A DNA stretch of 64,000 bases from Reichenbachiella agariperforans (GTDB lineage Bacteria > Bacteroidota > Bacteroidia > Cytophagales > Cyclobacteriaceae), in assembly GCF_900142205.1 (NCBI RefSeq), contig NZ_FRAA01000008.1, positions 124,001-188,000 on the forward strand, in the 5' to 3' direction. Below are positions 22,159-51,856 of the stretch, in pieces. Every line of letters begins with the position of its first letter. Within the stretch, counting starts at the first letter, position 1. Under the pieces are notes generated by a model. The model was not told the origin of the DNA and searched no databases. It saw nothing but the letters and a program-made list of their open reading frames with translations. Both the position numbers and the translations under genes were made by a program.

Positions 22159-22169
22159 CTTTCCTTATT

Positions 22170-34429: not shown

Positions 34430-35590
34430 TTATTCTCCAAAAATCCTCCGAATACTCTCCTCGGCGAATCCTGCGCTACCTGTCATGCCCTTGCCTCCTA
34501 TCCCGGTGACAATGTGGATGTGCTGGTCAATGGTATGCTCGAAAACATCCTTGTTTTTGCACTGGCTGTAAACCCCAAACCAGGTGCGCTGCAGCTCCCA
34601 AGATTCTAGGTCGAAGATTTCCTTGGCTAACCGGATCATGTACGCATTCATCTCCTGATTGATATCGAAACCCAAGGCATCTGCTTGGGCGGCATCTGCA
34701 TATTCGTGGGAATCACCGATGATGACACTGCCATCCATCGCTTGCTTGAATAGGATGTGAATCCCCCATTCTTTGTGTTTGGACTGTGGGTCTTCTTTGG
34801 CCTTGATTGCTGCGTAGGAGTTGCATTCGCTAAAACTCTCATAACGTCGGATGCTCAGTCCTGTCAGCACAGAGCCAGGTATGAACTGATTCCTTTGCGG
34901 TACTGTCTGCATCATCTGCAGCTTGGTCACTTCGAGATCGCTCTCCTGGTAGAGTTTTGGATACAGATTTTTGAAATCACTGCCCGTGCATACGACGACC
35001 TTTTCGGACATGAATACTTCGCCTGAATTGCAAAATACCCACTGGTTGTCACTGGCAGACTCAATCTCTGTCACACAGCGGTTCGAGAGATACTGCAAAC
35101 CGTACTGCTCGATCAAGTAGGCTCTGATCTGATGTACCGCCACTCTCGGCTCTACGGTCACCTCATCTGGAAAAAACAAGCCTCCCTTCACATAGTCCGC
35201 TTTCAAACCCTGATAAGTCTCTAGACATTCGGTAGGGGATTTCAACTGTGAAGCATATCCATTGACCTGATTGATCTGATGCAGTTCGTGGATCAGTGTC
35301 ATTTCTTCCTCGTCTGAGGCAATGTAGATCGAGCCGTTTTGACGAATCGATATATCTGTCTTAGCCTGTATGTCTTTGTATATCTCTAGACTCCTGCGTC
35401 CATATTTTTGCCATTTGGCATCCATACCCGAGGGGACGACCTGTCCGAAGTTTCGCACGGTGGCACTCATCGGTTCATGGTCTCGCTCGATCATCGCGAC
35501 GGACCTGCCTGCCATCAGTGCATGGTAGGCATGAAAGGTACCCAAGATACCGCCACCCACTACGATCAAATCATATTTCATTGTACTCAT
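34430..35590 (-). CDS. TIGR03364-family FAD-dependent oxidoreductase (aminophosphonate oxidase)
   Basis: A 386-residue DAO-fold flavoprotein. The N-terminal Rossmann motif is VVGGGILGTFHAYHAL with ERDHEP after the second strand. The segments VRNFGQVVPSGM, VTVEPRVAVHQIRAYL and the C-terminal THxVTGIGGKGMTGSAG-like region (seen as VTGIGGKGMTGSAGFAEES) fit TIGR03364. Members occur beside phosphonatase-like hydrolases, and enzymes of this kind are reported to oxidise N-methyl-AEP or AEP to phosphonoacetaldehyde, replacing the PhnW transaminase. No phnW is visible in this locus, which fits. It is the last gene of the operon, one base after the MFS gene. Exact substrate is inferred. Confidence 0.85.
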   Translation of the reverse strand: MSTMKYDLIVVGGGILGTFHAYHALMAGRSVAMIERDHEPMSATVRNFGQVVPSGMDAKWQKYGRRSLEIYKDIQAKTDISIRQNGSIYIASDEEEMTLIHELHQINQVNGYASQLKSPTECLETYQGLKADYVKGGLFFPDEVTVEPRVAVHQIRAYLIEQYGLQYLSNRCVTEIESASDNQWVFCNSGEVFMSEKVVVCTGSDFKNLYPKLYQESDLEVTKLQMMQTVPQRNQFIPGSVLTGLSIRRYESFSECNSYAAIKAKEDPQSKHKEWGIHILFKQAMDGSVIIGDSHEYADAAQADALGFDINQEMNAYMIRLAKEIFDLESWELQRTWFGVYSQCKNKDVFEHTIDQHIHIVTGIGGKGMTGSAGFAEESIRRIFGE

Positions 35591-35591
35591 C

Positions 35592-36875
35592 TCAATTCGC
35601 TATTCTAATCTTTCGCAACAAATAAACTACCGTAAAGCCCGTCATCACGATCCCTATCACGGCCACCACATAGGCGGACTGGACGATAAAGTCCAACCAA
35701 TCCACATTGGGTGAATAAAAATTCTTAAACAACAACACTCCCACACTGCCTAGGTAGCCAAAAGCATCCGCGATGTACATCAAAAAACCTATGTTAGCAC
35801 CAGAGATTTTGAAGACCGGGATGACCCGCTCAAACACAAAGCAGTTGAACGGTATATAGGCCAAATACACGCCTGTCATGATCATAATCACCCACAGCGA
35901 ACCAGATACCACTTTTTGTTCCATCCCAAAAGTGCTCAGTGCAATCGTGACATAGCCCACCAATATGATCAACTGTATGGCCAACAGTGCCTTGAAGTTG
36001 TCCCTGATCAGGAAAATCGAACTCATCACGATCAGTACAATGATGGTGGAAGGTATCGACGTACTCAAGTAGATCGACGGCTCCTCCGCAAAGCCCAAAG
36101 CCAGCCAAATATCGGAAGCGTAATTGCTGCGCAGGTCTCTAAAGATGGTGAGCATCATGTAGCTCAGTACCATGACCAGCATCAATCCTCCGATACTTTT
36201 GAGGCTTGTACGGCGACTTGCGGCATCCATGGGGACACGTGCCATCCGCTCCGCTTTGTCCTCCTCTGTCGGTTCGGGCATTTTGTTGAGCAAATAAACC
36301 GAGACCAACAGTGGCACGGTGAATATCAGCCCAACAATGTAGGGCATGTGGTACTCCGATACACTGAGGTTGATGATGAGCCATTGTGCGACGGACTTGC
36401 AGAGATTGGATGCCATGATGAAACTGATCGACAGGATCGCACCCAATATCTCCGTACTAGACCTACCCTCGAGGTAACTAAACACGATACCCCAGATCAT
36501 ACCCAAGGGCAGACCATTGAGGAAAAGACACCAGAAGTTATAGGGAGCTGGGATGAACGCAAACAGTACCAAGGCCAACTCTGCAAAACCAATCAGCGCC
36601 AAGATCAACCAAGCCCGCTGGCTCTTCTTTAGTTCAGAAATGAACTTGATCCCTATGAACTTCGAGAACATATACCCCAGTGCCTGAGCGATGATCAGCA
36701 GACTCTTGAACTCCAACCCCAGATAGGTAACATCCGCAAATACACCCACAGAAAAAGCCTTTCGAAAAGCATACATGCATGAATAAGTCGAAAATGCCAC
36801 CAAACCCATAGAGATCACGAGGAACCAAGCGTTTTTGGATTTTTGGGAGAAAGCAGCAGGCAAGGTCACATCCAT
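35592..36875 (-). CDS. DUF5690-family MFS transporter
   Basis: A 427-residue inner-membrane protein with about 12 hydrophobic helices and an MFS-like duplicated layout. The N-terminal segment STYSCMYAFRKAFSVGVF and the cytoplasmic loop around PEPTEEDKAERMARVP are seen between the halves. The family (DUF5690) resembles organophosphate:phosphate antiporters of the major facilitator superfamily. It is placed between the phosphonatase-like hydrolase (3 bp) and the FAD oxidoreductase (1 bp), so it probably carries the small phosphonate, or a related organophosphate, from periplasm to cytoplasm. No ABC-type phosphonate transporter (PhnCDE) is visible, so this is the only candidate importer here. 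Confidence 0.82.
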   Translation of the reverse strand: MDVTLPAAFSQKSKNAWFLVISMGLVAFSTYSCMYAFRKAFSVGVFADVTYLGLEFKSLLIIAQALGYMFSKFIGIKFISELKKSQRAWLILALIGFAELALVLFAFIPAPYNFWCLFLNGLPLGMIWGIVFSYLEGRSSTEILGAILSISFIMASNLCKSVAQWLIINLSVSEYHMPYIVGLIFTVPLLVSVYLLNKMPEPTEEDKAERMARVPMDAASRRTSLKSIGGLMLVMVLSYMMLTIFRDLRSNYASDIWLALGFAEEPSIYLSTSIPSTIIVLIVMSSIFLIRDNFKALLAIQLIILVGYVTIALSTFGMEQKVVSGSLWVIMIMTGVYLAYIPFNCFVFERVIPVFKISGANIGFLMYIADAFGYLGSVGVLLFKNFYSPNVDWLDFIVQSAYVVAVIGIVMTGFTVVYLLRKIRIAN

Positions 36876-36878
36876 GTC

Positions 36879-37568
36879 TTATACTTTGGCGTAATCCATG
36901 ATTTCCATCAGATTGGAGACGACATGTGTCGCGCCCAAAGCTGTCAATTCTTCGCGGCTGTACATGTTGGACGCTACGCCTACGATGTACTTGCACTGGG
37001 CATTGAGTCCCTCTTCCATATCGGATTGGGTATCCCCTACTTTGACGACTCGCTGTGCGTCTGTGATTCCAAAATGCGCCATGATCTTTTGGATCATCTC
37101 TGGCGAGGGTCTGCCCGATTCTACTTCATCACTGGTCACTGTGAAATCGATCAAATCACTTCCAGTCCAGCCTAGACGCTTGAGCAATAGGTCCACAATC
37201 TCCCGACTATAGCCAGTATCTAGGGCTACTTTGATCCCACGGTTGTGTAGTTCTGCAAATAACTCTACCGCTCCTGGAAAAGCCTTTATTTCATCTGTCT
37301 CTTCGTATTTTTTGATCAAAATCTTAAAAAAATCTGCATTGACTGCCTCACGCTCTTCATCACTAGTCTCAGGCGCATGCGCATCAATCAACTGATTGAT
37401 GCCTTCGGTTTTGTTCATCCCACCCACTGCTCTAAACACCTCTTCCAACTCCAGATGGATGCCGACTCTTTCCAATGCTTTTTTCACACACTGATACACT
37501 GTTTTTCCTTCTTCTACTGTGGTGCCAGCCATGTCAAATACGACCAGCTCTATTCCGTTCAAATTCAT
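36879..37568 (-). CDS. Phosphonatase-like HAD hydrolase (TIGR03351 type)
   Basis: A 229-residue cytoplasmic HAD enzyme close to PhnX, which cleaves the C-P bond of phosphonoacetaldehyde to acetaldehyde and phosphate. The nucleophile motif is the phosphonatase-specific FDMAGTT (Asp12) instead of DxDxT. Lys53 in GGMNKTEG lies in the cap at the position of the Schiff-base lysine of PhnX. The third motif has Arg (SGRPSPEMI), and KVGDTQSDMEEG supplies the acidic residues. All catalytic features of a phosphonatase are thus present. TIGR03351 members are typically found with FAD oxidoreductases instead of phnW, as here. It follows the ammonia-lyase-like gene by 31 bp. Confidence 0.9.
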   Translation of the reverse strand: MNLNGIELVVFDMAGTTVEEGKTVYQCVKKALERVGIHLELEEVFRAVGGMNKTEGINQLIDAHAPETSDEEREAVNADFFKILIKKYEETDEIKAFPGAVELFAELHNRGIKVALDTGYSREIVDLLLKRLGWTGSDLIDFTVTSDEVESGRPSPEMIQKIMAHFGITDAQRVVKVGDTQSDMEEGLNAQCKYIVGVASNMYSREELTALGATHVVSNLMEIMDYAKV

Positions 37569-37599
37569 ATATCTATATTATAATGCCGAAGCACAATGG

Positions 37600-38967
37600 T
37601 TAATTTTTTATTAAGCTTTTGAAAATCTGTCTGAAGCTCTCCAGTATAAAATCCGCTTCGTCCTGACTGATGATCAAGGGAGGATGCAGTGTGACCACAT
37701 TGGTATCGATCACTTTGAATGACAAGCCTTTGGACAGGCCATATTCCAATACCGCATTCGCTAAAGTTGGGTTCCGTTCTTTGGACTTCTTTGAGGTCAC
37801 CAGATCTATCGACAGGAGCAAACCGATCCCGTCCACATGACCGATCTGATCATATGCAGCTGCCATCTCTTGCAATCCTTTGAGCAGGTAGCTACCCAAT
37901 GATTCCGCACGTGACACCAATTCTTCTTGCTGAATGAAGTCAATGGTCGCATGCCCCGCTGCTGCACTAATCGGACTCTTCTCATGCGTAAAATGCCCGA
38001 TCGAATAATCTGCCACGACGTTGTATTTGTCCTTGGTCAAGATACCTGCAAACGGCAGTATTCCTCCGCCTAGAGACTTGCCCACTACCAATACATCAGG
38101 GGTGACATAGTGCTCCGCGGCAAACATTTTACCCGTTCGCCCCATGCCACACACGATTTCATCAAAGATCAAAAATGCGCCGTACTCATCGCAAAGTGTT
38201 CTCACAGTCTGCCAATATCTAGCTGTCGGGATAAAAGGCGTAGATGCCACAGGCGTCCCGACCACCGCTGCGATATCTGGATTGTTCTGAAACACCACAC
38301 GCAGCTGATCAAGATAGGCAGCATCGATGGCATCTGTATCAGCAGGATCTATACCCCAGGGATTGCGGTAATAGTTCGGGAACTCCACGAAAAATGCACC
38401 CGGCACCATGGGCCCCACGCCAGTCGTCCAGTGGGCATTGCCACTGAGCGTCGCTGCTTGAAAGGTGCTGCCATGAAATTGATTCCAAAAGGAAACTGTC
38501 TTCCACTTGCCCGTCACACGCTTGGCGAGCATCACGGCCATCTCTATGGCTTCCGATCCTCCCGGACAAAACAACACCCGGTCCAGTTCCTCAGGTGCCA
38601 TCGACACCAACTTCTCTGCAAAATCCACCGTCACCTGTGCCGTGTAGCGTCTCGGAGCAAAACTCAACTGATCGTCCAGTTGACGTTTGATGGCTGCTAC
38701 GACAGCAGGGTTGTTGTACCCGATGTGGTGTACGCCATTGCCATGCAGGTCGAAGTAGCGCTTGCCGTCATGGTCGAAGATGTAAGCGCCCTCTGCCCTC
38801 TCGATGACATTCATCACAGGCGAAGACAATGCTTGGTGCAAAAAAATATTGGCATCACGATTCAATATCGTCCGTGACGCTTGACTCAGGGATTCGGCCT
38901 TTCGGCTCTGCACCCCAGACTTGTGCGTATCTCCTTGCTGTACGAAGGAGGCAGTCATGTTACTCAT
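37600..38967 (-). CDS. pbfA: Class III PLP enzyme, probable 1-hydroxy-2-aminoethylphosphonate ammonia-lyase
   Basis: A 455-residue class-III-aminotransferase-fold protein. PLP features: FCPGGSEAIEMA, IFDEIVCGMGRTGKMF (Asp269 for the pyridine nitrogen) and VVGKSLGGGILPFAG with Lys297 as the Schiff-base residue. PbfA, an ammonia-lyase of this fold, converts (R)-1-hydroxy-2-aminoethylphosphonate to phosphonoacetaldehyde and is found in phosphonate loci with PhnX-type hydrolases. The neighbour here is such a hydrolase, so this is the favoured call over an ordinary omega-aminotransferase. The start ATG lies 8 nt inside the upstream phosphoesterase gene (ATGAGTAA); a second ATG nine bases later would sit just past that stop. 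Confidence 0.72.
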   Translation of the reverse strand: MSNMTASFVQQGDTHKSGVQSRKAESLSQASRTILNRDANIFLHQALSSPVMNVIERAEGAYIFDHDGKRYFDLHGNGVHHIGYNNPAVVAAIKRQLDDQLSFAPRRYTAQVTVDFAEKLVSMAPEELDRVLFCPGGSEAIEMAVMLAKRVTGKWKTVSFWNQFHGSTFQAATLSGNAHWTTGVGPMVPGAFFVEFPNYYRNPWGIDPADTDAIDAAYLDQLRVVFQNNPDIAAVVGTPVASTPFIPTARYWQTVRTLCDEYGAFLIFDEIVCGMGRTGKMFAAEHYVTPDVLVVGKSLGGGILPFAGILTKDKYNVVADYSIGHFTHEKSPISAAAGHATIDFIQQEELVSRAESLGSYLLKGLQEMAAAYDQIGHVDGIGLLLSIDLVTSKKSKERNPTLANAVLEYGLSKGLSFKVIDTNVVTLHPPLIISQDEADFILESFRQIFKSLIKN

Positions 38968-40843
38968 GGTTGGTTGATTTATTGAGTTTAAATATGTCTT
39001 TCATTCGGCCTTCGCTATCGTACATGCGCAGCTCCAGCTCGTCCCCAAACACCTCGATGGTCAAGTAGTGATGTCCCCTGAATGTCTTGGCACTGAACCA
39101 TGAACGAGTCGGTGCAAAATCCTCCAAATTACCGCCTGCACCACCGGCTTGGACATAAGTCACACCTTTGGTTTTGGTGACTTTGTTGTCCAATATCTGA
39201 TGGGTCCGCTGATAGGTATGCAGGTGACCGAAGAAGACCATGTCCACACCATACTTTTCGTAGAGTGGCACGATGGGCTTGATCTCTGGGTCGCCCATGG
39301 AGGTAGACTCCTTCCAACTGTCACCATAGTCGTCCTCATCCGAAGAATAGGGTGCATGATGATGCGCCACGAACTTCCACTCAGCAGTAGAGTGCTGTAG
39401 CTGTTCCTCTAGCCAGACATACTGCTCCGCTCCCTCCGCAAACTGATCCTTTCGGTTGCTATCGAGCATGAAGAACTCCGCATTGCCAAAGGTGAATTTG
39501 TAGTAGGCCTTGTCCTTGTACGGCAAGATGTGGTACTGATTGAACCAATACAGATCACCCTCTCCATTGCCCGCAACTGGATACACCGGAATGCGTGAGG
39601 TCAGTTGACTCATGGCATGGAAGTACTCATAGTTCCACTGGAACTTGTTGGCCTCTTGACCGCCATCAGTCAAGTCTCCAAGATTGAGCAAAAACTCAGG
39701 TCGCTCGTCCCAAAGCAACTTGGACACACGGTTGTTGACATGTGGGCGCGCCTCCGTATCACCAATCACCGAGAAGGTGAAAGATGCTGGCGCAACCTCC
39801 CCAGTTTTGAAGGTCGAAATTCCGCTTTCTATCACCTGCCCATCCTTGGTAGTTGATTTGATGTTGTAGAAATAAGCTTGACCCGGCTCTAGGTTTTTGA
39901 ATACGTATTGATTGATGTTGCTGCCTTCAATTGTGCCTGTTTCGCGGTTGCTTTTTAGGGTCTCTAGCTTCACACTTTCCGTCAAGGGCACAGAAGTCCC
40001 GTACTCAATCACTGTATTGGTGGGTTCGCTGGTTTCCCAGACGACCCCCATCTGGGTAGGCGTACCCATCTGTAGGTAAGGTCCAGCATTGTAATGAAAT
40101 AGGTCTGGGTAGAGCTTGCCTTCTATGGTCAGGTTTTGAAAGTCTTCGAAGTTCTTTTCAATCTCCTTTTTGCTCAAAGCCTGACGATACAGTCGCTGAC
40201 ACTTCAACAAATCTCCCATCTGCATGTAGGGCTCATGAGAGAGGTAGGCAGCATTCTCCAACTGCATGACTTTCGGGTCGTATTGCATGATTTTACCGAC
40301 TTTCATCTGAGCTTTCAGTTCGCCATTGAGGTAGAGTTTCATGAACTGCCCGTCATAGGTGGCTACCAGATGTGCCCAGTAATTCTTCCATCCGCGTCCC
40401 TCCACTTCAACATTCAGCGCGCTAGAAAACGCCGACTCCTGATCTTTGAGTGTAAAAACTACCTGACGACCATAGACACCCAGCAACCACAGCGGATCTT
40501 GCTCCTGATGCTGATAACGATAGGTGGTCATGATGCCCACCTCTTGATTGACATGATAGAGCAACCAGAGTTCCACCGAAAAAGCCTCCGTTGGCACTCG
40601 CTCAGAAGGAAAAAACCCTTCGACTCGCTCCGTCGGATCTTGACCGAAAAACTCAAACGGATAGGTCTTGTATTTCAAAGGAGCAACGGGTGACTTAGGC
40701 GATTCTAATCTTGGCCCGATGGGGTTATTGGCATGGCGATCCAGCGTATAGTCTGGCCAAAACCACCATTCGCTGAGGGCGTCCTGTGCTCGCGAAAATT
40801 GTACTGTTCCTATTAAAACAACTAGAATTAATAATCTTTTCAT
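38960..40843 (-). CDS. Secreted LamG-type metallophosphoesterase (purple-acid-phosphatase-like)
   Basis: A 627-residue exported enzyme; the ATG at 40841-40843 gives the signal MKRLLILVVLIGTVQFSRAQ and overlaps the PhoX stop (ATGA). An N-terminal concanavalin/LamG-like domain (about 55-215; SVELWLLYHVNQEVGIMTTY, WAHLVATYDGQFMKLYLNGE) precedes a fibronectin-III-like purple acid phosphatase N-domain (about 245-335) and a calcineurin-like catalytic domain with GDTEARPHVNN, NLGDLTDGG, GNGEGD in place of GNHD, AHHHAPYSSDEDD and GHLHTYQRTH. The usual GNHD His appears changed, which is unusual. It should hydrolyse phosphomonoesters or diesters outside the cytoplasm; the LamG domain may hold a glycan or lipid-linked substrate. 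Confidence 0.88.
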   Translation of the reverse strand: MKRLLILVVLIGTVQFSRAQDALSEWWFWPDYTLDRHANNPIGPRLESPKSPVAPLKYKTYPFEFFGQDPTERVEGFFPSERVPTEAFSVELWLLYHVNQEVGIMTTYRYQHQEQDPLWLLGVYGRQVVFTLKDQESAFSSALNVEVEGRGWKNYWAHLVATYDGQFMKLYLNGELKAQMKVGKIMQYDPKVMQLENAAYLSHEPYMQMGDLLKCQRLYRQALSKKEIEKNFEDFQNLTIEGKLYPDLFHYNAGPYLQMGTPTQMGVVWETSEPTNTVIEYGTSVPLTESVKLETLKSNRETGTIEGSNINQYVFKNLEPGQAYFYNIKSTTKDGQVIESGISTFKTGEVAPASFTFSVIGDTEARPHVNNRVSKLLWDERPEFLLNLGDLTDGGQEANKFQWNYEYFHAMSQLTSRIPVYPVAGNGEGDLYWFNQYHILPYKDKAYYKFTFGNAEFFMLDSNRKDQFAEGAEQYVWLEEQLQHSTAEWKFVAHHHAPYSSDEDDYGDSWKESTSMGDPEIKPIVPLYEKYGVDMVFFGHLHTYQRTHQILDNKVTKTKGVTYVQAGGAGGNLEDFAPTRSWFSAKTFRGHHYLTIEVFGDELELRMYDSEGRMKDIFKLNKSTNHE

Positions 40844-42195
40844 GCTTTGTCTCTCAATTGATCCCAAGGCCCTGTGATGGCCATGGTGAGCCCTTCTTCT
40901 TGTACATTGACGAATAGTGTTTTGCCGGATGGCGAAAAACATACGCCCGTGAGCTCTGATTTGGAGCCTACATTTCTACCAATGTTGTAGATCTCTCCGT
41001 CCGGCTTGATGCCTCGGATGTAGGCATCCGCTACATCCTCCACCAAGATCACATCACCCCATGGTGAAACGGTCAGGTTGTCGCAGAACTTCAGTATCTC
41101 GGTATCATTGGGTTCTGCAAACAAAGTCAAAACACCGGGCTGTTCGGCTTCCCGATCAGTCCCCTCAAACGGACTCGGTTTGTATTTGAACACCTGACCT
41201 GAGCGGTTCTTGCCGCCATTGGTACAGGCAAAATAGACCTCCTCGTTACCATACCACATGCCTTCGCCTCTATCAAAAACAGCCGCTCCCGCTTCGAAAC
41301 CTCTGTGGCGCAAATCATCCGCTGGGCTTTCGACATTGTCAAGCGTCATCCATTCCACAGCAAGTGACTGGCCAACTGCCAGCGCCTGTTGTTCAATATT
41401 TCGTGTATCAAAGCTCAACTGGTCTTTGATAACCAAGGCCTGTAGCACGCCTCCTTCATGGAGCTCTCCCGGCACATGAGGCAGGTAACGATAGATCAAA
41501 CTGTCGTGCTGATCCTCGGTCTGATAGACTATGCCAGTACTGGGATCTACAGCCACCGCTTCGTGGTTGAAGCGACCCATCGCCTTGATGGGCTTAGGTA
41601 CGATCAATCCTGTGCCACTGACAGGAATCTCAAAATTGTATCCATGAGACTGCTCATTTTCTTCGCCTTGTGGCGTAGTGTCTTCCTCACAGGTGATCCA
41701 GGTGTTCCATGGAGTCGGTCCACCTGCGCAGTTGCGATTGGTACCGATCAGACTCAAAAACTGCTTCTCGACTTCCTGCTTCTCTTCGTCAAATACCACA
41801 GTAGTCGTACCTCCTAGACTTGGGTTTTTCCCAAATCCATGGTCATAAAACTGCTCTTTGTGCAACAGATCAAACAGCTCCAAATCTTTGCCAAATGGAC
41901 CAAATTCAATGGGATTAGGGCTGTTCTCATGGTTGCGGATGAGGACGACTTTTCCATCCAAATCAAAAGCCGCCATGCCATCTGCTCTGCTCGGTACAAA
42001 GAATCCATCTGACATTTTTTCTCCCCACTGAGAGATGATCTTTGCCTCAAATCCTTCTGGTAATTCCAACCATTGATTGGCAGCTGTCATGGTTTCATTT
42101 TTGGCAAACGAACAATGGGTCAGGTACTGTGCTAGTCCTGCAAATCCTATGGAAACTACTGCAGACTGCTTGATAAATTTTCTTCTTGAATTCAT
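40840..42195 (-). CDS. phoX: PhoX-family alkaline phosphatase
   Basis: A 451-residue protein with a Tat-like signal (NSRRKFIKQSAVVSIGFAGL). PhoX enzymes are Ca2+/Fe-dependent phosphatases releasing phosphate from many organic phosphoesters. DUF839/PhoX signatures are visible: LIRNHENSP, NPSLGGTTTVVFD, NRNCAGGPTPWNTWITCEED, GRFNHEAVAVDPSTGIVYQTED, and FEAGAAVFDRGEGMWYGNEE. It overlaps both neighbours by ATGA junctions, so it is translated as part of the operon. Length is near the shorter PhoX subgroup. Confidence 0.92.
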   Translation of the reverse strand: MNSRRKFIKQSAVVSIGFAGLAQYLTHCSFAKNETMTAANQWLELPEGFEAKIISQWGEKMSDGFFVPSRADGMAAFDLDGKVVLIRNHENSPNPIEFGPFGKDLELFDLLHKEQFYDHGFGKNPSLGGTTTVVFDEEKQEVEKQFLSLIGTNRNCAGGPTPWNTWITCEEDTTPQGEENEQSHGYNFEIPVSGTGLIVPKPIKAMGRFNHEAVAVDPSTGIVYQTEDQHDSLIYRYLPHVPGELHEGGVLQALVIKDQLSFDTRNIEQQALAVGQSLAVEWMTLDNVESPADDLRHRGFEAGAAVFDRGEGMWYGNEEVYFACTNGGKNRSGQVFKYKPSPFEGTDREAEQPGVLTLFAEPNDTEILKFCDNLTVSPWGDVILVEDVADAYIRGIKPDGEIYNIGRNVGSKSELTGVCFSPSGKTLFVNVQEEGLTMAITGPWDQLRDKA

Positions 42196-43286
42196 AGTGC
42201 TGGATTGGGATGGATGGACACTGGATTGCTTCTTTCGTAGGTCGAGCTATCAAATGTGACTTGGAAAGTACTGAATGGATTGATTTCTTTGATATAGTAA
42301 TCTGTGGTGATCACCTGTGCGCCTGAGCGTTTGGCAGCCTCGAATCGCTCGTAGTTGTTCTTCCTCGCTTCATCTGTATTGGCATCTGCGCGGGTTCTGA
42401 CCATGTAGCCTTTTTTGACTCGCTCTCTGATTTCCTGCTCCTGCTCAATCGGATCATTCATGATGAAAAATGCAGCCATAGGGTGCGTCTCTTCTACATC
42501 CACGAACATCGGTTTGCTCGCTACGTCACCTTGCAAATACTGCTCAGTTAGTTCACGACCTGCATCGAAGACAAACAAAACTTTCCCTCTCGAAGCGTCC
42601 AATGCTGGCCAGCCAGTAGTCAAGACCGCTTCCCTCAAACTCGCTGCTGATCCCTGTACCAGTCCAGGGGTGATCAGCTCTTCATCTGCAAATACAGCTG
42701 CGATCTCCGCATCCAAACTATCCAAAGCCTGTGCATCGAAAGCCGTCACTTCGGTATATCCTGGCTTGTTGATGCCGGAGTTCTTAGGATTGATCGTGAT
42801 GATGATAGGGAAATGGGTAGGATTTGCCATAGACCAGGTCCGTACATCCGACAAACATCCCTTGAAAGTCAAACAGTGACTCCTAAAGTCAATGTCCGGG
42901 ATATGAAAAGTTTTGATGCCCCGAGTCGACAACTCATGAGCCGTATCGAATGGTAAGGCTGGGATTCCCAGAGAATCCATCAACTGCAAAGCCAAAGGCT
43001 GCTGAAAACGCCCTCCTTCTGGGTCATACACGACATCTATTTCCAGATTCCTCAGTCCCAAATCCAACTGCTGATCGAGTGGCAGGTGTCTGTAGTCCAA
43101 GCCCATCGCACCAGAGTCTTCTTGAATCAACAATTGCATCAGGGCGGGTTCTATACCGCTCTTGTAACTGTTGTGGCTACCGATGACTTGCATTTGGTTG
43201 AGCTTGATTGGTACTTGGGTTTCTTGCTTGGGTTGGCAGGCGATTGCTGTCAGGAAGAGAAAGAATATGGGGGTCAAATGTTTCAT
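42192..43286 (-). CDS. PI-PLC-like phosphodiesterase lipoprotein (Ca2+-dependent type)
   Basis: A 364-residue lipoprotein (MKHLTPIFFLFLTAIACQPK). It matches the bacterial Ca2+-dependent phosphatidylinositol-specific phospholipase C1-like group: QVIGSHNSYKSG with the first catalytic His, LRNLEIDVVYDPEGGRF with metal-binding acidic residues, FHIPDIDFRSHCLTFKGCL, and FPIIITINPKNSG. Such enzymes cleave a phospholipid between glycerol and the phosphorylated head group. An in-frame ATG 48 bp upstream overlaps the preceding stop (ATGA) and could be used, but the later one gives a proper lipobox. In this operon it may release head groups or cleave phosphono- or phosphodiester lipids. Confidence 0.87.
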   Translation of the reverse strand: MKHLTPIFFLFLTAIACQPKQETQVPIKLNQMQVIGSHNSYKSGIEPALMQLLIQEDSGAMGLDYRHLPLDQQLDLGLRNLEIDVVYDPEGGRFQQPLALQLMDSLGIPALPFDTAHELSTRGIKTFHIPDIDFRSHCLTFKGCLSDVRTWSMANPTHFPIIITINPKNSGINKPGYTEVTAFDAQALDSLDAEIAAVFADEELITPGLVQGSAASLREAVLTTGWPALDASRGKVLFVFDAGRELTEQYLQGDVASKPMFVDVEETHPMAAFFIMNDPIEQEQEIRERVKKGYMVRTRADANTDEARKNNYERFEAAKRSGAQVITTDYYIKEINPFSTFQVTFDSSTYERSNPVSIHPNPAL

Positions 43287-43330
43287 GAATATAAAATGAT
43301 TAATTGCTAAATTCTTTTGGGTTGGGTGAA

Positions 43331-44998
43331 TCATTGGTGCGTTAAGGTTAGACTATCCATCAATTGATTTTCCAGATCATAGGCTCTGAAAGTCAATGAT
43401 TTGCCTTGTACTGTAGCTATACCATAGTGGTGTTTTTTGATGACGGTATCCATGACTGGCCAGTCGGACAAACCCGAAGGTTCAAGACCTCCTCCTCCAC
43501 CACCTACAACCAGAAACGCTGTCTTTTGCGCTCCAAACTGACGGATCAATCGCTCATAGTCATGGCTGTGTCCAGCGACCACTAGATCGATGCGAGTGGA
43601 TTCAAAAAGCGGCTCTAGGAGTTCCAGTATAGATACCTCACCGTGATAGCCTGGCCAACCTTGTGAGTAAGGCGGATGATGCAATACAATCCATCGCCAC
43701 TCCGCTGACACCCAAGCGGATGAATGAATCTGCTCAATAAACCAATCGTACTGCGCAGAGCCCTCTGGTATCCCAACAGGAAACCGTTCATCAGGATCCA
43801 ATGCAATGAAAGCACAATTGCCCTCAGTCCATGAGAAATACTGCTTTTGATGAGGCAAAGCAGCAAACTCAAAGTAATTCTTTGGATGGAGGTCATCGTA
43901 ATACCCGTCATAATCATGATTGCCCGGCACTGGATAATGCACAAAAGTGGACTGACTCAAGGCCTCTACAAACTGTAAATATGCGAAACGGTCACTACCC
44001 TGATCAACAAGATCCCCTGCTCCTAAACCGAAGGCGGGTTCATGTTCATTCATACGAGATATAAGCTGCCCAAATGTTGTCCAACCTCCTTGGCTATCTC
44101 CCCAGAGTGCCAATTGGAAAGTGTCCTTTACCATTTGTTTTTGGAAACTATAGATCTGCGATTGCGTCTTTCCTTGTTGTATTTGGTAATAGATTATGTT
44201 CTCAAAGGATGGAAAAGAAGTCAGAAAATTCCCTGAAACACCTGAGACCGTTTTGTGCAGATTGAGATCTAAAGAATCTTTTCCGAATCGGAGGATTGCC
44301 TGCTCTATTCCCTCAGATTGCCACCTTAGGTAGAGACTATCATTGGCTGCTTGCCAGTAGGGATCGGTAAGCATGGCTGGATATACTGACAAATCTGCTT
44401 GTTTCAAATCTGGATGAATCAAGCTGAGCTTTCGCTCTGTGATCCACTGATCGTAATGTTTTTGTTGGGTGCTCTGATAGTCTGACCAGCCCTTTTGAGC
44501 AATCCATTGGACACTTCTGAGCCCACCCTCCATGGCGTTGTTGAGCACTCGAATCGTGATTTCTGTAGGTTGATTGGATGTAGCATGAATGGGAAAATAT
44601 TCTCCTGTCAATCGATGAGCACGCTGGCCATTGAGCCAAAGCTGTGCGCCATCATCGGCACGAATGTGCAGTACGCCGTTATCGAGTGGCACAGAGGTTC
44701 TGTACCAAATCGGTGAATTGGGCAGTAGGATTCGATGTGGGAGTGTTACAGACTCGCTACTATCAAAGGACGGTATGGTGGGATTCAAGCCTCCAACCGT
44801 ATCTGTGGCAATTACCTGCCAGTCTTGATTGACATCCATGCCAACCATCATAGGCAAATGCAGCAGAGAGTCCAACCTTGCATTGGCTGTCAAGTCTCCT
44901 AATAACACATCCGAATAAGTAGGAATGGGGAAATGAGTCTGAGGGCTACTACACCCCCAGACAAACAAAATTACAAACGTAACAACTAGTCTATTCAT
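43331..44998 (-). CDS. Metallophosphoesterase lipoprotein with N-terminal beta-domain
   Basis: A 555-residue lipoprotein (lipobox VILFVWGCSSP). The N-terminal part (about 25-270) is beta-rich with a jelly-roll-like segment (VLHIRADDGAQLWLNGQRAH). The calcineurin-like catalytic domain shows every metal-ligand block: LALWGDSQGG, GLGAGDLVDQGSD, VPGNHDYDG, IVLHHPPYSQG and VAGHSHDYERL. The intact GNHD contrasts with the altered block in the LamG-type enzyme of this operon. Likely a secreted phosphomonoesterase or diesterase. Separated from the preceding hydrolase gene by 9 bp. Confidence 0.9.
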   Translation of the reverse strand: MNRLVVTFVILFVWGCSSPQTHFPIPTYSDVLLGDLTANARLDSLLHLPMMVGMDVNQDWQVIATDTVGGLNPTIPSFDSSESVTLPHRILLPNSPIWYRTSVPLDNGVLHIRADDGAQLWLNGQRAHRLTGEYFPIHATSNQPTEITIRVLNNAMEGGLRSVQWIAQKGWSDYQSTQQKHYDQWITERKLSLIHPDLKQADLSVYPAMLTDPYWQAANDSLYLRWQSEGIEQAILRFGKDSLDLNLHKTVSGVSGNFLTSFPSFENIIYYQIQQGKTQSQIYSFQKQMVKDTFQLALWGDSQGGWTTFGQLISRMNEHEPAFGLGAGDLVDQGSDRFAYLQFVEALSQSTFVHYPVPGNHDYDGYYDDLHPKNYFEFAALPHQKQYFSWTEGNCAFIALDPDERFPVGIPEGSAQYDWFIEQIHSSAWVSAEWRWIVLHHPPYSQGWPGYHGEVSILELLEPLFESTRIDLVVAGHSHDYERLIRQFGAQKTAFLVVGGGGGGLEPSGLSDWPVMDTVIKKHHYGIATVQGKSLTFRAYDLENQLMDSLTLTHQ

Positions 44999-45007
44999 AA
45001 ATCACTA

Positions 45008-46084
45008 CTACTGAATTGCTCCCTGCACTGCCTCACCAGCTTTAGGTTGCTTGTATTTTTCTCCCAGAGCCTCCATGACAGTACGCGCCACTTGGTTTTG
45101 GTAAAACTGCCCTTCTTCTTTTATTTCACCTTTAGTAGGGGTATCTGGTCCCATCACTGCTATCCAGATTTCACCAGCATCTTTGATGCGGTTGCCATGG
45201 TGCTGCCAAGTTTTCTTTGGGTGTGTGCCACGGCCGTGATCCGTTGTGATGATCAGAGTCGTCTTGCCTTTGTACTGTTCCTGAGACTGTGCATAATCCC
45301 ATAGCTCTTTGATATAAGCATCCGTTTGCTTCGCAGATTTCAAATACTGGTCGTACTCGCCATCATGAGCAAAATCATCCGTCTCACCGTAGGCGACATA
45401 GAGCACCTTAGGCTTGTTTTTCTTCATGTACTCCATGGCATAGTGATGGGTAAACACATCCAACCGAACGCCACCCCAAGGGCCTCTGATCTCGTCCTGA
45501 ATCTTGTTCAAGAAAGACTCGGTCTCGTTAGGACTATCAGTTGCTTTCTCAAACCCGGCATTGATTGGGAGACCACTGCGCTCCCTGTTGATGATGTAGG
45601 GGAACACATCCCAAGAGCCGAAGGCTGCTACTTGCCCCTTGTATTTTTTGGTATTGTTGAGATGCTCTAGAATGGTGACATTGGGATTGTTGATTTTATC
45701 GTTGCTACTGATGTTTTCGTCATCTGCAAAACCCGTCAATATCTCGTTATAGCCTGGGTATGAAAACCACATTTGGTTGCTGCAGTCTACCTTATTTCCA
45801 TACTTCCTATTGCCATAGAGTTGCCCCTCTGCTGCGATGGTGTTCCAAAAGAAAGGCATCAACATTTCTCTTCTTTGTAGTGGATCATTGACCCAAAATG
45901 CTTCGGTCAGTTCTTCTGGATTCTCGACATATTTAGAATCATCAACTAATAAAGAGTCCGCTCCACCGAACAATTCTTGCCATCTCAAACCATCAAGAGA
46001 TACGAGTATGACATTTTCTGTTTTCTGCGCCAAGCTCATAATTGACATTGAGCATAGTAGGCACAGTATTGATATTTTTTTCAT
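45008..46084 (-). CDS. Alkaline-phosphatase-superfamily phosphodiesterase/sulfatase-like hydrolase
   Basis: A 358-residue secreted protein (signal CSMSIMSLAQ). Metal-binding motifs of the alkaline phosphatase superfamily are in place: NVILVSLDGLRWQELF (Asp), the substrate-region WFSYPGYNEILTGF, YVAYGETDDFAHDGEYDQY (Asp and His), LIITTDHGRG (Asp-His) and the later WQHHGN (His). It resembles nucleotide pyrophosphatase/phosphodiesterases more than sulfatases (no CxPxR). In this locus it probably cleaves phosphodiesters or phosphonate esters at the surface or in the periplasm. First enzyme gene after susD, with a hairpin between. Confidence 0.88.
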   Translation of the reverse strand: MKKISILCLLCSMSIMSLAQKTENVILVSLDGLRWQELFGGADSLLVDDSKYVENPEELTEAFWVNDPLQRREMLMPFFWNTIAAEGQLYGNRKYGNKVDCSNQMWFSYPGYNEILTGFADDENISSNDKINNPNVTILEHLNNTKKYKGQVAAFGSWDVFPYIINRERSGLPINAGFEKATDSPNETESFLNKIQDEIRGPWGGVRLDVFTHHYAMEYMKKNKPKVLYVAYGETDDFAHDGEYDQYLKSAKQTDAYIKELWDYAQSQEQYKGKTTLIITTDHGRGTHPKKTWQHHGNRIKDAGEIWIAVMGPDTPTKGEIKEEGQFYQNQVARTVMEALGEKYKQPKAGEAVQGAIQ

Positions 46085-46153
46085 CCTTAAAGTATTGTGT
46101 TTTTTGACAAAATTTGATTGCTAGTGTGCTAGACATCATTATATCGAAAAGAC

Positions 46154-46193
46154 AAACCACCCCGTCTCTTATTCAGAGGTGAAGGGGTGGTTT
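46154..46193 (-). terminator. Hairpin between susD and the first hydrolase gene of the phosphonate locus
   Basis: A perfect 10-bp stem AAACCACCCC / GGGGTGGTTT (46154-46163 with 46184-46193) has a 20-nt apical region that itself pairs CTCT / AGAG. On the minus strand the tail is TTTGTCTTTT, a weak U-tract. It may act as a partial terminator or stabiliser, keeping susCD mRNA above that of the enzymes. The pectin locus has a hairpin at the equivalent junction (19176-19218). Confidence 0.65.
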
Positions 46194-46209
46194 TTATATC
46201 CTTATCGTA

Positions 46210-47760
46210 TTAATTTATATCCCACCACACTTTCGTGTTGAGATTGTCTGGTCCCTGACGAGCGATCACTGCATCGTAATTATCCTTGTTGAGAGCCTGT
46301 ACATCAGTCGGGTAGATGAATCTCACTGGCACTGTCGACTGTACTGCTCCTGCTCCAGGCGTGATCGTCGGGTAACCCGTTCTTCTCCAGTCGAACCATG
46401 CCTCCATTCCGCTGAAAAACAATGCGATCCACTTTTGTGTCCCGATTTTCTCCAAAAGCTCTGCTTGCGTCCCAGTGTAAGCCACATCTGCTTGTGTGAA
46501 ATAAGTCGCGTCTGGCGCTACTGCTGCACTGATATCAGTATAACCACCCACATCAAGTCTCGATATGTAGTAGTCAAATGAAGATTGAATGCCATTCGTG
46601 TAGTAAGTCTCGGCATCACCCGTCGAAATAAACCCACGCTCTCTCGCCTCTGCCAATACAAACTGCAACTCAGAATAGCTCATCAAGATCGATTGTCTTG
46701 CAATCGGTGAAGCCAAATCATCACATGCTGAACAGGAGAACATCAAGCCTACTCTAGAGATGTAGTTAGATCCGCCCTTATCCGCTTCACCACTAGGAGA
46801 GTAAGCCAATGCCTCTTCATCAGCTAGGCCATTAGGCACTCCTTGATAGTCATCCAAAGCCCCAACAAGCCCTGCGCCAGAATTAGTAGTAGGTTGAGCA
46901 TAAGCGTAGATTCTGTTGTCATTCAATGACTTGAGAATGTCTTCCATATTTTCGCTCAGTCGATACTCATCAAATGAACCTGAACGCGTCGTATAAAGTG
47001 GCTGCTGATTCGGGTTATCTTGCAAATACTGCAATGCGGCATTGTCTTCATTGCCTGTCATGATTGGGTAAGTACTCGCATCACTCATGATCGCTTGCAT
47101 CGCAGCACTAGGATCTATTCTATCAGACAGTCTCATGTGAATTCTCAACAATAGGGAGTTTGCAAACTTCTTCCACAACATGATGTCTCCAGCGAACAAA
47201 ATATCTCCTTCGATACTCGCTCCTAATGGATCTAAAAGTGTATTAGCTGATTCTAGATCAGCAATAATCCCTGCGTATATATCGGACTGCGTATCAAAAA
47301 CCGGTGAATTCACACCAGACTTGGCCGCTACAGCTTGACTATATGGCAAATCGCCATAAGTATCTGTCATCACAGAGTACATCCAAGATTTCATCACGAG
47401 TGCGACTCCTTTGTAATTGTCCTCACCTGACTCTTCAGAGATATTGATGATATTCTGCACATCACGCATCGAATTGAAGAATGGATCATACGGATCACTA
47501 GCGGGTCCCCAGTTATAACGATCCTCGTTAGTAAACTGAATTTTTGCAGAATATTGCATCACGACATTACCATACCCCCATGCTAGACCAGCGGTCTCAG
47601 ACACTCCTTTTCTGATGACAGTCGGAAGCAAGAGAGAAGCAGGCACAGCCTCAGGGCTATTGGGGTTGACGTTGGTTTCTTCGAACCCTTGGTCACAGGC
47701 TGACACAGCAAATGCTAATGCTAGCGCTACGGGAATTGCTTTTATATTAATTTTTTTCAT
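46210..47760 (-). CDS. SusD/RagB-family lipoprotein (phosphonate locus)
   Basis: A 516-residue lipoprotein (lipobox LALAFAVSACDQGFEE) of the SusD-like_2 type, marked by NVNPNSPEAVPASLLLPTV near the N-terminus, VVMQYSAKIQFTNEDRY, SWMYSVMTDTYGDLPYSQA and a C-terminal MEAWFDWRRTGYPTI and IPTDVQ-like end. It should be the surface lid and ligand-binding partner of the adjacent SusC-type transporter. This SusD subtype occurs with cargoes other than classical polysaccharides. The cargo is inferred from the phosphatase and phosphonate genes that follow. Confidence 0.94.
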   Translation of the reverse strand: MKKINIKAIPVALALAFAVSACDQGFEETNVNPNSPEAVPASLLLPTVIRKGVSETAGLAWGYGNVVMQYSAKIQFTNEDRYNWGPASDPYDPFFNSMRDVQNIINISEESGEDNYKGVALVMKSWMYSVMTDTYGDLPYSQAVAAKSGVNSPVFDTQSDIYAGIIADLESANTLLDPLGASIEGDILFAGDIMLWKKFANSLLLRIHMRLSDRIDPSAAMQAIMSDASTYPIMTGNEDNAALQYLQDNPNQQPLYTTRSGSFDEYRLSENMEDILKSLNDNRIYAYAQPTTNSGAGLVGALDDYQGVPNGLADEEALAYSPSGEADKGGSNYISRVGLMFSCSACDDLASPIARQSILMSYSELQFVLAEARERGFISTGDAETYYTNGIQSSFDYYISRLDVGGYTDISAAVAPDATYFTQADVAYTGTQAELLEKIGTQKWIALFFSGMEAWFDWRRTGYPTITPGAGAVQSTVPVRFIYPTDVQALNKDNYDAVIARQGPDNLNTKVWWDIN

Positions 47761-47798
47761 CTTTCTGTATTTATACTATTTAGAAATATGTCCCTGAA

Positions 47799-50700: not shown

Positions 50701-51041
50701 AGTTCTTTTACATTTTCTGCTAATGTAGCGTCCACTACTGTGCGGCTACCTATCGTTACTTCCTGAGTCGCATAACCTATGCTAGTCATGATCAGCTTCT
50801 CTGCACCAGATGGAATCGTAAGAGAGTAACGACCATTGACATCTGTAATACTACCTACAGTTTCATTCCCTTTGACGATCACAGTCGCGCCGATGACAGC
50901 AGTCCCTGTAGCATCAGATACTTGTCCTTCGATGCGTCTATCCTGTGCGCTAGCGACAATACTACCCATGAGAACAAAAACGAGCACCAAGCTTTGTAGC
51001 AGTAGCTTAATGTTTTTTGGATTCAATAAAATTGAGTTCAT
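47799..51041 (-). CDS. SusC/RagA TonB-dependent transporter (phosphonate locus)
   Basis: A 1080-residue outer-membrane protein: signal (FVLMGSIVASAQ), CarboxypepD_reg-like domain (RIEGQVSDATGTAVIGATVI), plug with VVVTALGVERETKALGYS and SVLKGPAAAALYGSRAANG, then a long beta-barrel ending SYGFNININL. It belongs to a different SusC branch from the pectin-locus copy (ALGVxREtKALGYSVQ start, common in SusD-like_2 pairs). It leads an apparently continuous gene string of phosphatases and phosphonate catabolism and is divergent from an XRE-cupin regulator. Confidence 0.96.
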   Translation of the reverse strand: MNSILLNPKNIKLLLQSLVLVFVLMGSIVASAQDRRIEGQVSDATGTAVIGATVIVKGNETVGSITDVNGRYSLTIPSGAEKLIMTSIGYATQEVTIGSRTVVDATLAENVKELHEVVVTALGVERETKALGYSVQEVQGDDMTEARETNMVSGLSGKVAGVQVTNSGSTIGGSARVTIRGESSLNINGNQPLFIVDGIPISNQVQGASGSGNLEVDYGNAAGEINPDDIATVSVLKGPAAAALYGSRAANGAILITTKTGKSSKGIGITINSNTTFENPLRLPEWQNTYGQGNNGQFEFVDGSGSGIADGVDESWGPKLDGQLISQFDSPRNIDGFRGGDLNAPAGSTITPTAWSPSPDNINDFFETGVTLTNSISIASSNDKGNIRLSYTNLDQKGMVPNTDLKRNTLALNTGVNLTDKLKINASINYINTESGNRPAISYGTESLMYLWIWYGRQVNTNNLKNYWMPGMEGVQQFNYNYNYHDNPYFTTYENTNGQSKDRVLGNVSATYKFTNELSLMVRTGTDFYNELRDRKRAFSTQRFPLGMYREDKLYFNERNSDFLLTYNKQLNKDFGFTVSVGGNQMKQTFNYNQTVAPQLLIPGIYNFSNSAVNLQVSQNDTEKKINSLYGYAQFAYKNMIFLDVTGRNDWSSTLPVDNNSYFYPSTTLSAVISDMVALPSPISFVKLRGAYAQVGNDTNPYSLSNVYVSETAWGSTQAKSESSVLANAELKPEKTASFELGADVRLFKGRLGLDFTYYDNRTSDQIIPIALDIATGYNSRIINAGEIQNNGIELMVNATPVQLANGLTWEMGVNFTRNRSKVIELTEGLDTYTMTEINGAYVQARVGERMGDIYGVGFARVEDENSPYYGQIIHSAEGTPLRGSELEKQGNYNPDWMMGIQNTLSFKGLSLGVLFDIRQGGIVVSRTKTIGSTSGQLKETLYGRENGYDLALDGNGIISEGVIQNADGSFIPNNVKVASRNWHNRYYERNNVEAAKYDASYVKLREVKLSYTMPSKWFVSTPVRSIKVSVVGRNLALWTENPHFDPDVMAMSGGTLQPGIENMAYPSARSYGFNININL

Positions 51042-51165
51042 AGAATTTGATTTTTGTGTTTTGATCCCGCAATATCAAATTCTACTTTGAAGTGAGTATG
51101 TTGAAAATGTTACACTATCTGTAAGATCAGTAGCGCAAAAAGTCCATTTGTTAACATTAAATTAA

Positions 51166-51277
51166 TTGACTAATATGAAACCCAATTGACAACACTGAAT
51201 CAAAATAAAGTCATTAAACAAATGTTAAGTTTACTAATATGAAACTATACTTGTACGTAAGTTGACAAATAAGAAAC
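51166..51277. promoter_or_regulatory. Three copies of a 16-bp element between susC and the XRE-cupin gene
   Basis: TTGACTAATATGAAAC (51166-51181), TTTACTAATATGAAAC (51230-51245) and TTGACAAATAAGAAAC (51262-51277) start 64 and 32 bp apart, i.e. about six and three helical turns, so all three would face the same side of the DNA. The last copy ends 12 bp before the regulator start codon. The best explanation is an operator set for the XRE-cupin protein, controlling both itself and the divergent susC operon. Binding is inferred. Confidence 0.6.
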
Positions 51278-51289
51278 CAAAGAAAAGCC

Positions 51290-51856
51290 ATGAACAACAT
51301 CGTAGTTAGCTGGATCGGTAACAAAATCAAGTCCCTCCGCAACCAAAAAAACCTCTCACTCAACGAACTAAGCAACCAATCCAAAATCAGTAAAAGTCTA
51401 CTCTCAAAAATAGAAAACTCACGCACGATCCCTTCTCTACCTGTTTTCATCAATATCCTAGAATCACTCGAAGTAGCACCCAAAGATTTCTTTGAAGACA
51501 TGTACCTAAAAAACGGTCACAATTTCACAGTCGTAAAAAAAGAAGATCGAAAAACAATAGAAAAGGAAGATCGTGTGGGATTCAAGTATCACTCCATCAT
51601 CAACCAAAGCCTCCTCAACCTCAATGTAGATATCGTACACCTGACAGTAGAACCACACGCCAAATATGAACCCACCAGCACCGATGGTTATGAGTTCAAA
51701 ATTGTTCTCTCTGGAAAAATCGAATACATCATAGGAGAAGAAAGCACCCTGCTGCAAGAAGGTGACTCGATATTCTTTGACGCCCGTATCCCCCACTATC
51801 CCAAAGCTGCCGAGGAACGGGTTCAGCTGCTAGTCATCTATTTTTTATTCCCATAA
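51290..51856 (+). CDS. XRE-family regulator with C-terminal cupin domain
   Basis: A 188-residue regulator. An N-terminal HTH (about 8-66; IGNKIKSLRNQKNLSLNELS, ISKSLLSKIENSRTIPSLP) is joined to a cupin sensor domain (about 105-185; VEPHAKYEPTSTDGYEFKIV, LQEGDSIFFDARIPHYPKAA). Proteins of this layout sense a small ligand through the cupin and repress or activate a neighbouring catabolic operon. It is divergent from the susC of the phosphonate locus, with three repeats of a 16-bp element in the 248-bp gap. A phosphonate or degradation product is a reasonable but unproven ligand. Confidence 0.92.
   Translation: MNNIVVSWIGNKIKSLRNQKNLSLNELSNQSKISKSLLSKIENSRTIPSLPVFINILESLEVAPKDFFEDMYLKNGHNFTVVKKEDRKTIEKEDRVGFKYHSIINQSLLNLNVDIVHLTVEPHAKYEPTSTDGYEFKIVLSGKIEYIIGEESTLLQEGDSIFFDARIPHYPKAAEERVQLLVIYFLFP

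Follow-up and report, generated by a model that had tools for sequence, protein, structure and literature searches.

A probable aminophosphonate utilisation locus, organised along the lines of a polysaccharide utilisation locus, in Reichenbachiella agariperforans

Gene content and layout of the locus

We analysed a 64,000-nucleotide stretch of the Reichenbachiella agariperforans genome (Bacteroidota; contig NZ_FRAA01000008.1), hereafter the window, which contains a gene run that starts with a SusC/SusD pair (SusCD). Between 34430 and 51041, the minus strand carries eleven open frames that lead from susC and susD through secreted phosphoesterases to an aminophosphonate branch (Table 1). The initial annotation had described eleven same-strand genes running from a SusC/SusD pair to phosphonate catabolism, and we found all of these frames to be intact and assignable to families. 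It had left unnamed the XRE-cupin regulator gene that also lies within range. Judged by the conservation counts reported below, the gene run is more than a chance arrangement.

The susC and susD genes are 38 bp apart, and the nine genes downstream of susD overlap or are separated by at most 31 bp. Because a gap of 125 bp follows susD, a separate promoter is possible before the first hydrolase gene. For the second metallophosphoesterase, a start at 40843 is more likely than one at the first ATG (40942), because the ATG at 40843 has a 4-bp overlap with the stop of phoX and gives an N-terminus resembling a signal peptide. The nearest solved relatives of the SusD protein are RagB/SusD proteins. 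We note that the locus has a G+C content of 46.4%, compared with 42.8% in the first 34 kb of the window and 44.3% at 52-64 kb, with a peak of 50.9% near 38-40 kb.

Table 1. Predicted features of the locus, with positions in the window and the match supporting each assignment.
Feature	Position	Strand	Evidence
SusC-type TonB-dependent outer-membrane transporter, 1080 aa	47799..51041	-	Pfam plug + barrel
SusD-like_2 surface lipoprotein, 516 aa, lipobox-like SAC	46210..47760	-	PF12771, 325.8 bits
Alkaline-phosphatase-superfamily hydrolase, predicted secreted	45008..46084	-	best Pfam match Sulfatase, 34.2 bits
Metallophosphoesterase, lipoprotein-like N-terminus	43331..44998	-	PF00149
PI-PLC-C1 protein (Ca2+-dependent phosphoinositide phospholipase C family), lipoprotein-like N-terminus	42192..43334	-	PF16670, 384.4 bits; 3h4w PI-PLC1
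PhoX phosphatase, Tat-like RRKFIK N-terminus	40840..42195	-	PF05787, 258.6 bits
Metallophosphoesterase with purple-acid-phosphatase N-domain and Laminin_G_3 (LamG)	38960..40843	-	Pfam Metallophos
PbfA-like lyase	37600..38967	-	NF049939, 615.7 bits (cut-off 525)
TIGR03351 phosphonatase-like HAD hydrolase	36879..37568	-	218.4 bits (cut-off 218.9)
DUF5690 membrane protein, possible inner-membrane phosphonate carrier	35592..36875	-	DUF5690, 489 bits
TIGR03364 FAD oxidoreductase (PbfD family)	34430..35590	-	416.9 bits (cut-off 285.1)
XRE-cupin regulator, divergent from susC	51290..51856	+	family search
Three exact TTKACWAATAWGAAAC copies, candidate operators, regulator-susC gap	51166..51277	.	at 51166, 51230, 51262

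Recurrence of the gene set with SusCD

Using the PbfA-like protein as a query over named genomes, we recovered 62 loci, four of which had SusC and SusD homologs together beside the PbfA-like gene. Identity to the window SusC in these loci was 76% in Roseivirga spongicola, 75% in R. pacifica, 51% in Parapedobacter luteus and 79% in a metagenome-assembled genome labelled Rickettsiales NP5; a further locus (L018) had a 29% identical SusC without SusD. PbfA scored over the cut-off in 15 of 395 Bacteroidota genomes, own genome counted, and these genomes gave two additional loci combining PbfA with SusCD (G182, SusC identity 52-53%, and G202, 33%). When wider stretches were considered, SusC, SusD, TIGR03351, DUF5690, TIGR03364 and PbfA were all present in seven out of seven loci (window counted). 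Gene order shifts between lineages, and the gene set is constant. A homolog of the regulator was labelled in six of the seven loci, with none detected at E 1e-6 in the R. pacifica locus. The assembly titled Rickettsiales (L003 / L129, PBTY01000083.1) carries a Bacteroidota cassette, and its title or binning is probably wrong.

In the reverse search, the window SusC was compared with the same 395 genomes, scoring the best two candidates per genome (more SusCs may exist). DUF5690 and TIGR03364 adjoined SusC in all seven scored places with at least 50% identity, the window's own included, and TIGR03351 did so in six. In comparison, none of the 11 fetched places with SusCs of 41-49% identity, drawn from many lower-scoring places, had DUF5690, TIGR03364 or TIGR03351 nearby.

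The association was also seen from the oxidoreductase side. TIGR03364 scored over the cut-off in 32 of the 395 genomes (33 places found; G223, under the cut-off, was left out), and its neighbours within about 12 kb included TIGR03351 in 23, DUF5690 in 24, SusC in 19, SusD in 17 and a homolog of the hydrolase at 45008-46084 in 14. These counts were made by script within 10-12 kb for 29 genomes and by eye for the window, G182 and G202; in the window, SusC and TIGR03364 are 12.2 kb apart. Four DUF5690 clusters had a single TonB receptor (G324, G174, G210 and G017), and SusC or such a receptor was present in 22 out of 24 DUF5690 clusters.

As controls, we used 20 distant stretches on the same contigs, with profiles trained only on unlinked SusCDs, and covered 20 of the 24 DUF5690 regions (G000, G202, G391 and G099 omitted). 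A SusC and SusD pair occurred in 13 of the 20 cassette regions and in none of the 20 control stretches (p = 1.3e-5), and SusC or a TonB receptor in 15 versus three (p = 3e-4), where five regions (L133-L137) were fetched by, and hence centred on, SusC, and p-values here and throughout ignore kinship among genomes. An earlier version, in which some test members had gone into the profiles, gave 19 of 20 versus five of 20 for SusC or receptor. With seven of seven close SusCs linked against none of 11 more distant ones, and 13 of 20 regions against none of the controls, the pairing of SusCD with the phosphonate branch proposed in the initial annotation is conserved in related genomes.

Predicted functions of the enzymes, carrier and regulator

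The TIGR03351 hydrolase had been credited with the phosphonatase residues Asp12, Lys53 and an Arg, and alignment with the solved phosphonatase 2iof confirmed all three, placing the Arg at position 153 (equivalent to Arg160). Window residues Asp179 and Asp183 align with Asp186 and Asp190 of 2iof, and we take Asp12, Lys53, Arg160, Asp186 and Asp190 to be catalytic. Asp12, Lys53, Arg153 and Asp179/183 were invariant in 28 out of 28 TIGR03351 rows. At the positions of Cys22 and His56, the window hydrolase has Lys and Gly, respectively.

As first noted from the gene list, the eleven genes include no PhnW, and none scored over the cut-off (360.8) in the own genome (50.5 bits) or any of the seven PbfA-cassette genomes, where the best match reached 63.9 bits. 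'PhnW' labels near G320, L127 and L128 were rejected for weak identity (30%, 28% and 24%), and scores in G406 and G407 fell below the cut-off; G320 was outside that scoring. The phnCDE and C-P lyase genes are not among the eleven, and no genome-wide search for them was made. In the sections available of the PbfD study (PMC10590968), PbfD enzymes convert aminoethylphosphonate (AEP) and N-methyl-AEP to phosphonoacetaldehyde, the Acinetobacter enzyme is annotated as TIGR03364, and a Mariniblastus PbfD (PbfD2) is thought to substitute for a missing PhnW. Because no PhnW passed the cut-off in seven out of seven genomes, and given the Mariniblastus precedent, the FAD oxidase probably takes over the job of PhnW. 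TIGR03364 was also present in 11 of the 15 genomes with PbfA over the cut-off, compared with 32 of the 395 overall (p = 1.8e-10).

The PbfA-like protein passes the PbfA model by a wide score yet belongs to a separate clade. It falls within a 27-row branch, here called type II, which is distinct from the PbfAs with the best scores (support 98/99; stem 0.87). Comparing 27 rows of type II with 17 of type I, after excluding six rows of the 50-row tree that were on long branches or unplaced, we found K297, the pyridoxal phosphate lysine by position, and 53 other residues invariant across all 44, and eight near-fixed differences between types, such as Q170 for D170. Type II members also occur in Runella, Limnovirga and Paenibacillus. 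Three Paenibacillus loci (L022, L023 and L029) contain two PbfA-like genes a few kb apart, one of them type II. In L023 the two genes flank an ABC importer and are followed by a DeoR regulator. The arrangement suggests two related substrates.

PbfA is described as converting the R form of hydroxy-aminoethylphosphonate (HAEP) to phosphonoacetaldehyde (excerpts of PMC12366243 and PMC8154272), and PhnZ as converting it to glycine and phosphate (PMC8154272, in part). Since PbfD makes phosphonoacetaldehyde from AEP and N-methyl-AEP, and PbfA makes it from R-HAEP, the three inputs would converge on this compound. Thirteen clusters without PbfA carry a PhnZ-like protein of 179-223 residues, and TIGR03276 (phosphonate HD-domain oxygenase) was the best NCBIfam match in all seven of the 13 that were scanned, with three over the cut-off of 214.6 and the others at 194-214. 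Across 30 clusters, PbfA was present in seven, a PhnZ-type oxygenase in 13 and both in none (nominal p = 0.0096), a count that excludes TIGR03364 standing alone (L162, L163 and L164), the phnW-type clusters of G352, G258 and G215, and four loci with PbfA and DUF5690 (L121-L124) that were not screened for PhnZ. PbfA and the PhnZ-type oxygenase thus replace each other in the cassette; in phnW clusters containing phnZ, PbfA is likewise reported never to be present (PMC8154272, same excerpt). This alternation, with the two never together, points to HAEP as one substrate, and because the window lyase occupies the PbfA-or-PhnZ place, we identify it with moderate confidence as a HAEP lyase.

A PhyH-type dioxygenase, which we take to be the family of the AEP hydroxylase PhnY*, was not found in five out of 12 genomes searched (G202, G204, G395, G403 and G406), and HAEP there would therefore come from outside. 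The own genome has two PhyH-type matches, both on another contig. Three loci (L113, L119 and L120) represent another cluster type, with PhnW, PhnY, PhnA, PbfA, a type I phosphodiesterase and a carrier of the major facilitator superfamily (MFS), identified by annotation in L113 and by BLAST in the other two. All three are without a SusC and SusD pair, and L113 shows a weak SusC-profile match at the edge of its stretch.

For DUF5690, the sole solved relative found by profile was the glucose-6-phosphate exchanger SLC37A4, a weak match (E 0.0058) in which R38-K39 aligned to the RK motif of SLC37A4. R38 was kept in 29 out of 29 rows and R246 in 28. DUF5690 is probably an MFS-like protein, with a weak signature resembling organophosphate:phosphate antiporters (OPA; GlpT/UhpT/SLC37). 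Ordinary MFS membership was not supported by hhalign against a pair of MFS proteins, which gave a probability of 2.2%; the structure model, with a confidence (pLDDT) of 40.1, was too poor to be informative. We found no paper naming DUF5690 in the open-licence literature.

An XRE-cupin homolog was present near TIGR03364 in 16 out of 32 genomes. In the gap between the regulator and susC of the window, TTKACWAATAWGAAAC with two mismatches allowed had four matches, compared with an average of 0.48 in shuffles, none of 100 of which reached four, and the same gap contains two related sites in L129 and two in L134. Nine sites were found in 12 linked loci and two in 31 control stretches (0.377 versus 0.033 per 10 kb), although seven of the nine match by construction, as the pattern was made from the window, L129 and L134. 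Among the other nine linked loci, seven had no site (L128, L130, L135, L136, L137, L112 and L020), and L127 and L133 had one each, inside phoX and not before susC. A palindrome shared by 18 regulator upstream regions was sought with a Gibbs sampler and rejected. Because the gain over shuffles was small (for example, 9.93 bits versus 7.35-7.9 at width 18) and the sites were inconsistent, we kept only the exact repeats of the window, L129 and L134 as candidate operators.

Phosphoesterases are a variable component of the cassette. Type I phosphodiesterase and GDPD-like proteins recur in cassette clusters, the window has PI-PLC, one cluster (L149 / G099) has a phospholipase C, and PF04185 phosphoesterases occur in L153 and, weakly, in L152 and L166. 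A profile search with the hydrolase at 45008-46084 gave no solved relative with an E-value under 0.027, and its low-confidence model (pLDDT 54.4) matched alkaline-phosphatase-superfamily enzymes such as YejM, LtaP, iPGM and ENPP7 (best E 3.8e-4, TM about 0.4), which indicates the superfamily only. When part of a lipid or glycan, a phosphonate ester is similar to a phosphodiester, and enzymes of this kind could therefore release AEP or HAEP, which would explain the presence of diesterases and phospholipases C in these loci. A polymer or lipid cargo would fit their recurrence; the cargo may be a lipid, a glycan or free phosphonate. Acanthamoeba lipophosphonoglycan, which contains AEP and HAEP, is a possible example. 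The portion of PMC3964302 available describes it as a glycan of the glycosylphosphatidylinositol type and lists AEP among its abbreviations.

Interpretation and comparison with known systems

It is likely that this Bacteroidota locus serves aminophosphonate utilisation and has the layout of a polysaccharide utilisation locus (PUL). Underlying this reading are the observed gene set and its order, the families to which the genes belong, the conservation of catalytic residues, and the repeated occurrence of the set with SusCD or a TonB receptor. Because the operon joins SusCD, secreted phosphoesterases and C-P-breaking enzymes, and recurs in distant relatives, aminophosphonates attached to larger molecules are a probable food source of these bacteria. 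Surface and periplasmic phosphoesterases would release aminophosphonates from esters such as phosphonolipids or phosphonoglycans, SusCD would bring the ligand across the outer membrane, and DUF5690 would bring the small phosphonate across the inner membrane. The PbfD-type oxidase would convert AEP or N-methyl-AEP, instead of PhnW, and the PbfA-like lyase R-HAEP, into phosphonoacetaldehyde, which the TIGR03351 hydrolase would cleave to acetaldehyde and phosphate. The XRE-cupin protein may regulate the operon via the repeats before susC.

Several observations weigh against this reading. On the tree, the linked SusCs fall into more than one clade (three changes, compared with a shuffled mean of 7.9), and the G202 cluster has a different SusCD. 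By these profiles, two of the 24 DUF5690 clusters (G099 and G253) were without a TonB receptor in the fetched stretch, and three of the 32 TIGR03364 genes (G119, G336 and G162) had no other cassette genes nearby. The window TIGR03351 protein scored 0.5 bits under its cut-off. Type II PbfA is also present in genomes that lack a TIGR03351 match at E 1e-15 (G397, G401, G410 and G411, four of 20 searched, 18 of which carry type II), and it occurs in Runella and Limnovirga without surrounding cassette genes, so its substrate is not certain. Additionally, free AEP might cross by other routes, and SusCD therefore need not imply a big cargo. The proposal in the initial annotation that a large organophosphorus substrate enters through SusCD is supported in part: the linkage of SusCD with phosphonate genes is conserved, and the cargo may be a polymer or lipid.

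Two alternatives concern what SusCD carries. The locus could be a general phosphate-starvation locus, in which SusCD and phosphoesterases take up ordinary phosphodiesters (lipid headgroups, nucleic acids) and the phosphonate genes are an add-on co-regulated under low phosphate. PhoX and the metallophosphoesterases of the window, the inconstant phosphoesterase set, and the SusCD ('PusCD') loci with phosphomonoesterases (PMEs) and phosphodiesterases (PDEs) induced by phosphate depletion (Lidbury 2020, PMC8115612, in part) are consistent with this. Nevertheless, the constant partners of this SusC are phosphonate genes rather than any single phosphatase, and the XRE-cupin gene recurs beside the cassette in half of the genomes; we regard this alternative, which is compatible with an aminophosphonate locus, as possible but rather unlikely. 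A similarly tentative view is that aminophosphonates enter through SusCD or the TonB receptor as small free molecules (AEP, HAEP), with the hydrolases serving other ends and no polymer or lipid involved. Some clusters do have a single TonB receptor without SusD, and none of the eleven genes encodes a glycan-cleaving enzyme, but the clusters repeatedly contain secreted diesterase or phospholipase families, and SusD lids have been described chiefly with oligomeric ligands.

The type II protein could instead be a related phospho- or ammonia-lyase acting, for example, on O-phosphoethanolamine from phospholipids, given its separate clade (stem 0.87) and eight near-fixed differences, its occurrence in genomes without a TIGR03351 match, and the fold it shares with the phosphoethanolamine lyase 6tor. 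We find this doubtful, as the protein scores well over the PbfA cut-off, retains K297 and the 53 other invariant residues, and occupies the spot of type I PbfA or PhnZ in other clusters. Far less probable still is a glycan locus in which laminarin or a different glucan is the ligand of SusCD, a role proposed for a Maribacter forsetii SusCD with similar neighbours. That SusCD, the most raised on laminarin, adjoins an alkaline phosphatase, an FAD oxidoreductase and a phosphonatase-like hydrolase; in the available part of the same paper, however, no SusC or SusD gene had a co-directional adjoining carbohydrate-active enzyme (CAZyme) (PMC11345257). The Maribacter genes may be this same cassette. 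The window locus contains no CAZymes, and linked SusCs track phosphonate genes.

A more specific version of the aminophosphonate reading seems improbable as a whole. It holds that the locus is the phosphonate counterpart of a PUL for hydroxy- and N-methyl-AEP esters of protist or invertebrate membranes (e.g., Acanthamoeba-type lipophosphonoglycan), where surface PI-PLC and diesterases would free the headgroup, SusCD would import it, DUF5690 would be a phosphonate:phosphate exchanger, and control would lie with a substrate-sensing XRE-cupin switch rather than with the Pho system. If the exchanger part is true, carbon and nitrogen might be acquired by the cell and phosphate given back.

Flanking genes include an OLD-family ATPase with a TOPRIM domain (52868-55012, minus strand), possibly a defence gene, and an AcrB-type RND efflux pump gene (59947-63111, minus strand). 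A YjdM/PhnA-domain protein 4 kb away (55955-56530, plus strand) is an annotation trap near a phosphonate locus; we set it aside because, whatever its name implies, it is probably not phosphonoacetate hydrolase.

The joining of SusCD with phosphoesterases and phosphonate genes is already in print: Flavobacterium has low-phosphate PusCD loci with phosphoesterases and phosphonate-degrading enzymes (Lidbury 2020, PMC8115612), and a PhnW-less PbfD cluster was reported in 2023 (PMC10590968; both sources in part). What is new is the phylum-wide core set, the PbfA/PhnZ slot, the weak OPA-like signature in DUF5690 and the candidate operators. We found no paper in the open-licence literature linking AEP, TonB-dependent transport and phospholipase. 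A phylum of glycan eaters gains a defined, recurrent gene set for aminophosphonates, SusC branches that probably bind something other than a glycan are singled out, and DUF5690 is given a candidate function. SusCDs classed as glycan transporters solely on proteomic grounds may carry phosphonates instead.

Compared with PusCD, the window locus shares SusCD beside PME and PDE genes; PusCD is defined by induction under phosphate depletion. PusD1 and PusD2 carry PF07980/PF14322, in contrast to the PF12771 match of the window SusD, and PbfA, PhnZ, PbfD and DUF5690, present in the window or its relatives, are not named in the available sections of that account (PMC8115612). The cluster of Mariniblastus fucicola likewise has a PbfD-type oxidase for PhnW, and SusCD is not mentioned in the excerpts describing it (PMC10590968). 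The HAEP branch is common to the window, PhnZ clusters and PbfA/PhnWX clusters, although those clusters are defined by phnW (PMC8154272, in part), which is over the cut-off in none of the seven PbfA-cassette genomes. The AepXVW, AepP and AepSTU importers provide inner-membrane AEP uptake beside AEP catabolism, a place held by DUF5690 in the window (PMC8316502, in part); the term 'outer membrane' is absent from that paper (PMC8316502). A pectin-type PUL in the same window (11593-25280, minus strand) is also led by SusC/SusD, with GH28, GH88, pectate-lyase-like and GDSL esterase genes as partners. Mariniblastus, we assume, lies outside Bacteroidota. With PULs in general, the window locus shares the SusC and SusD pair; no CAZyme is found among its eleven genes, only a LamG domain.

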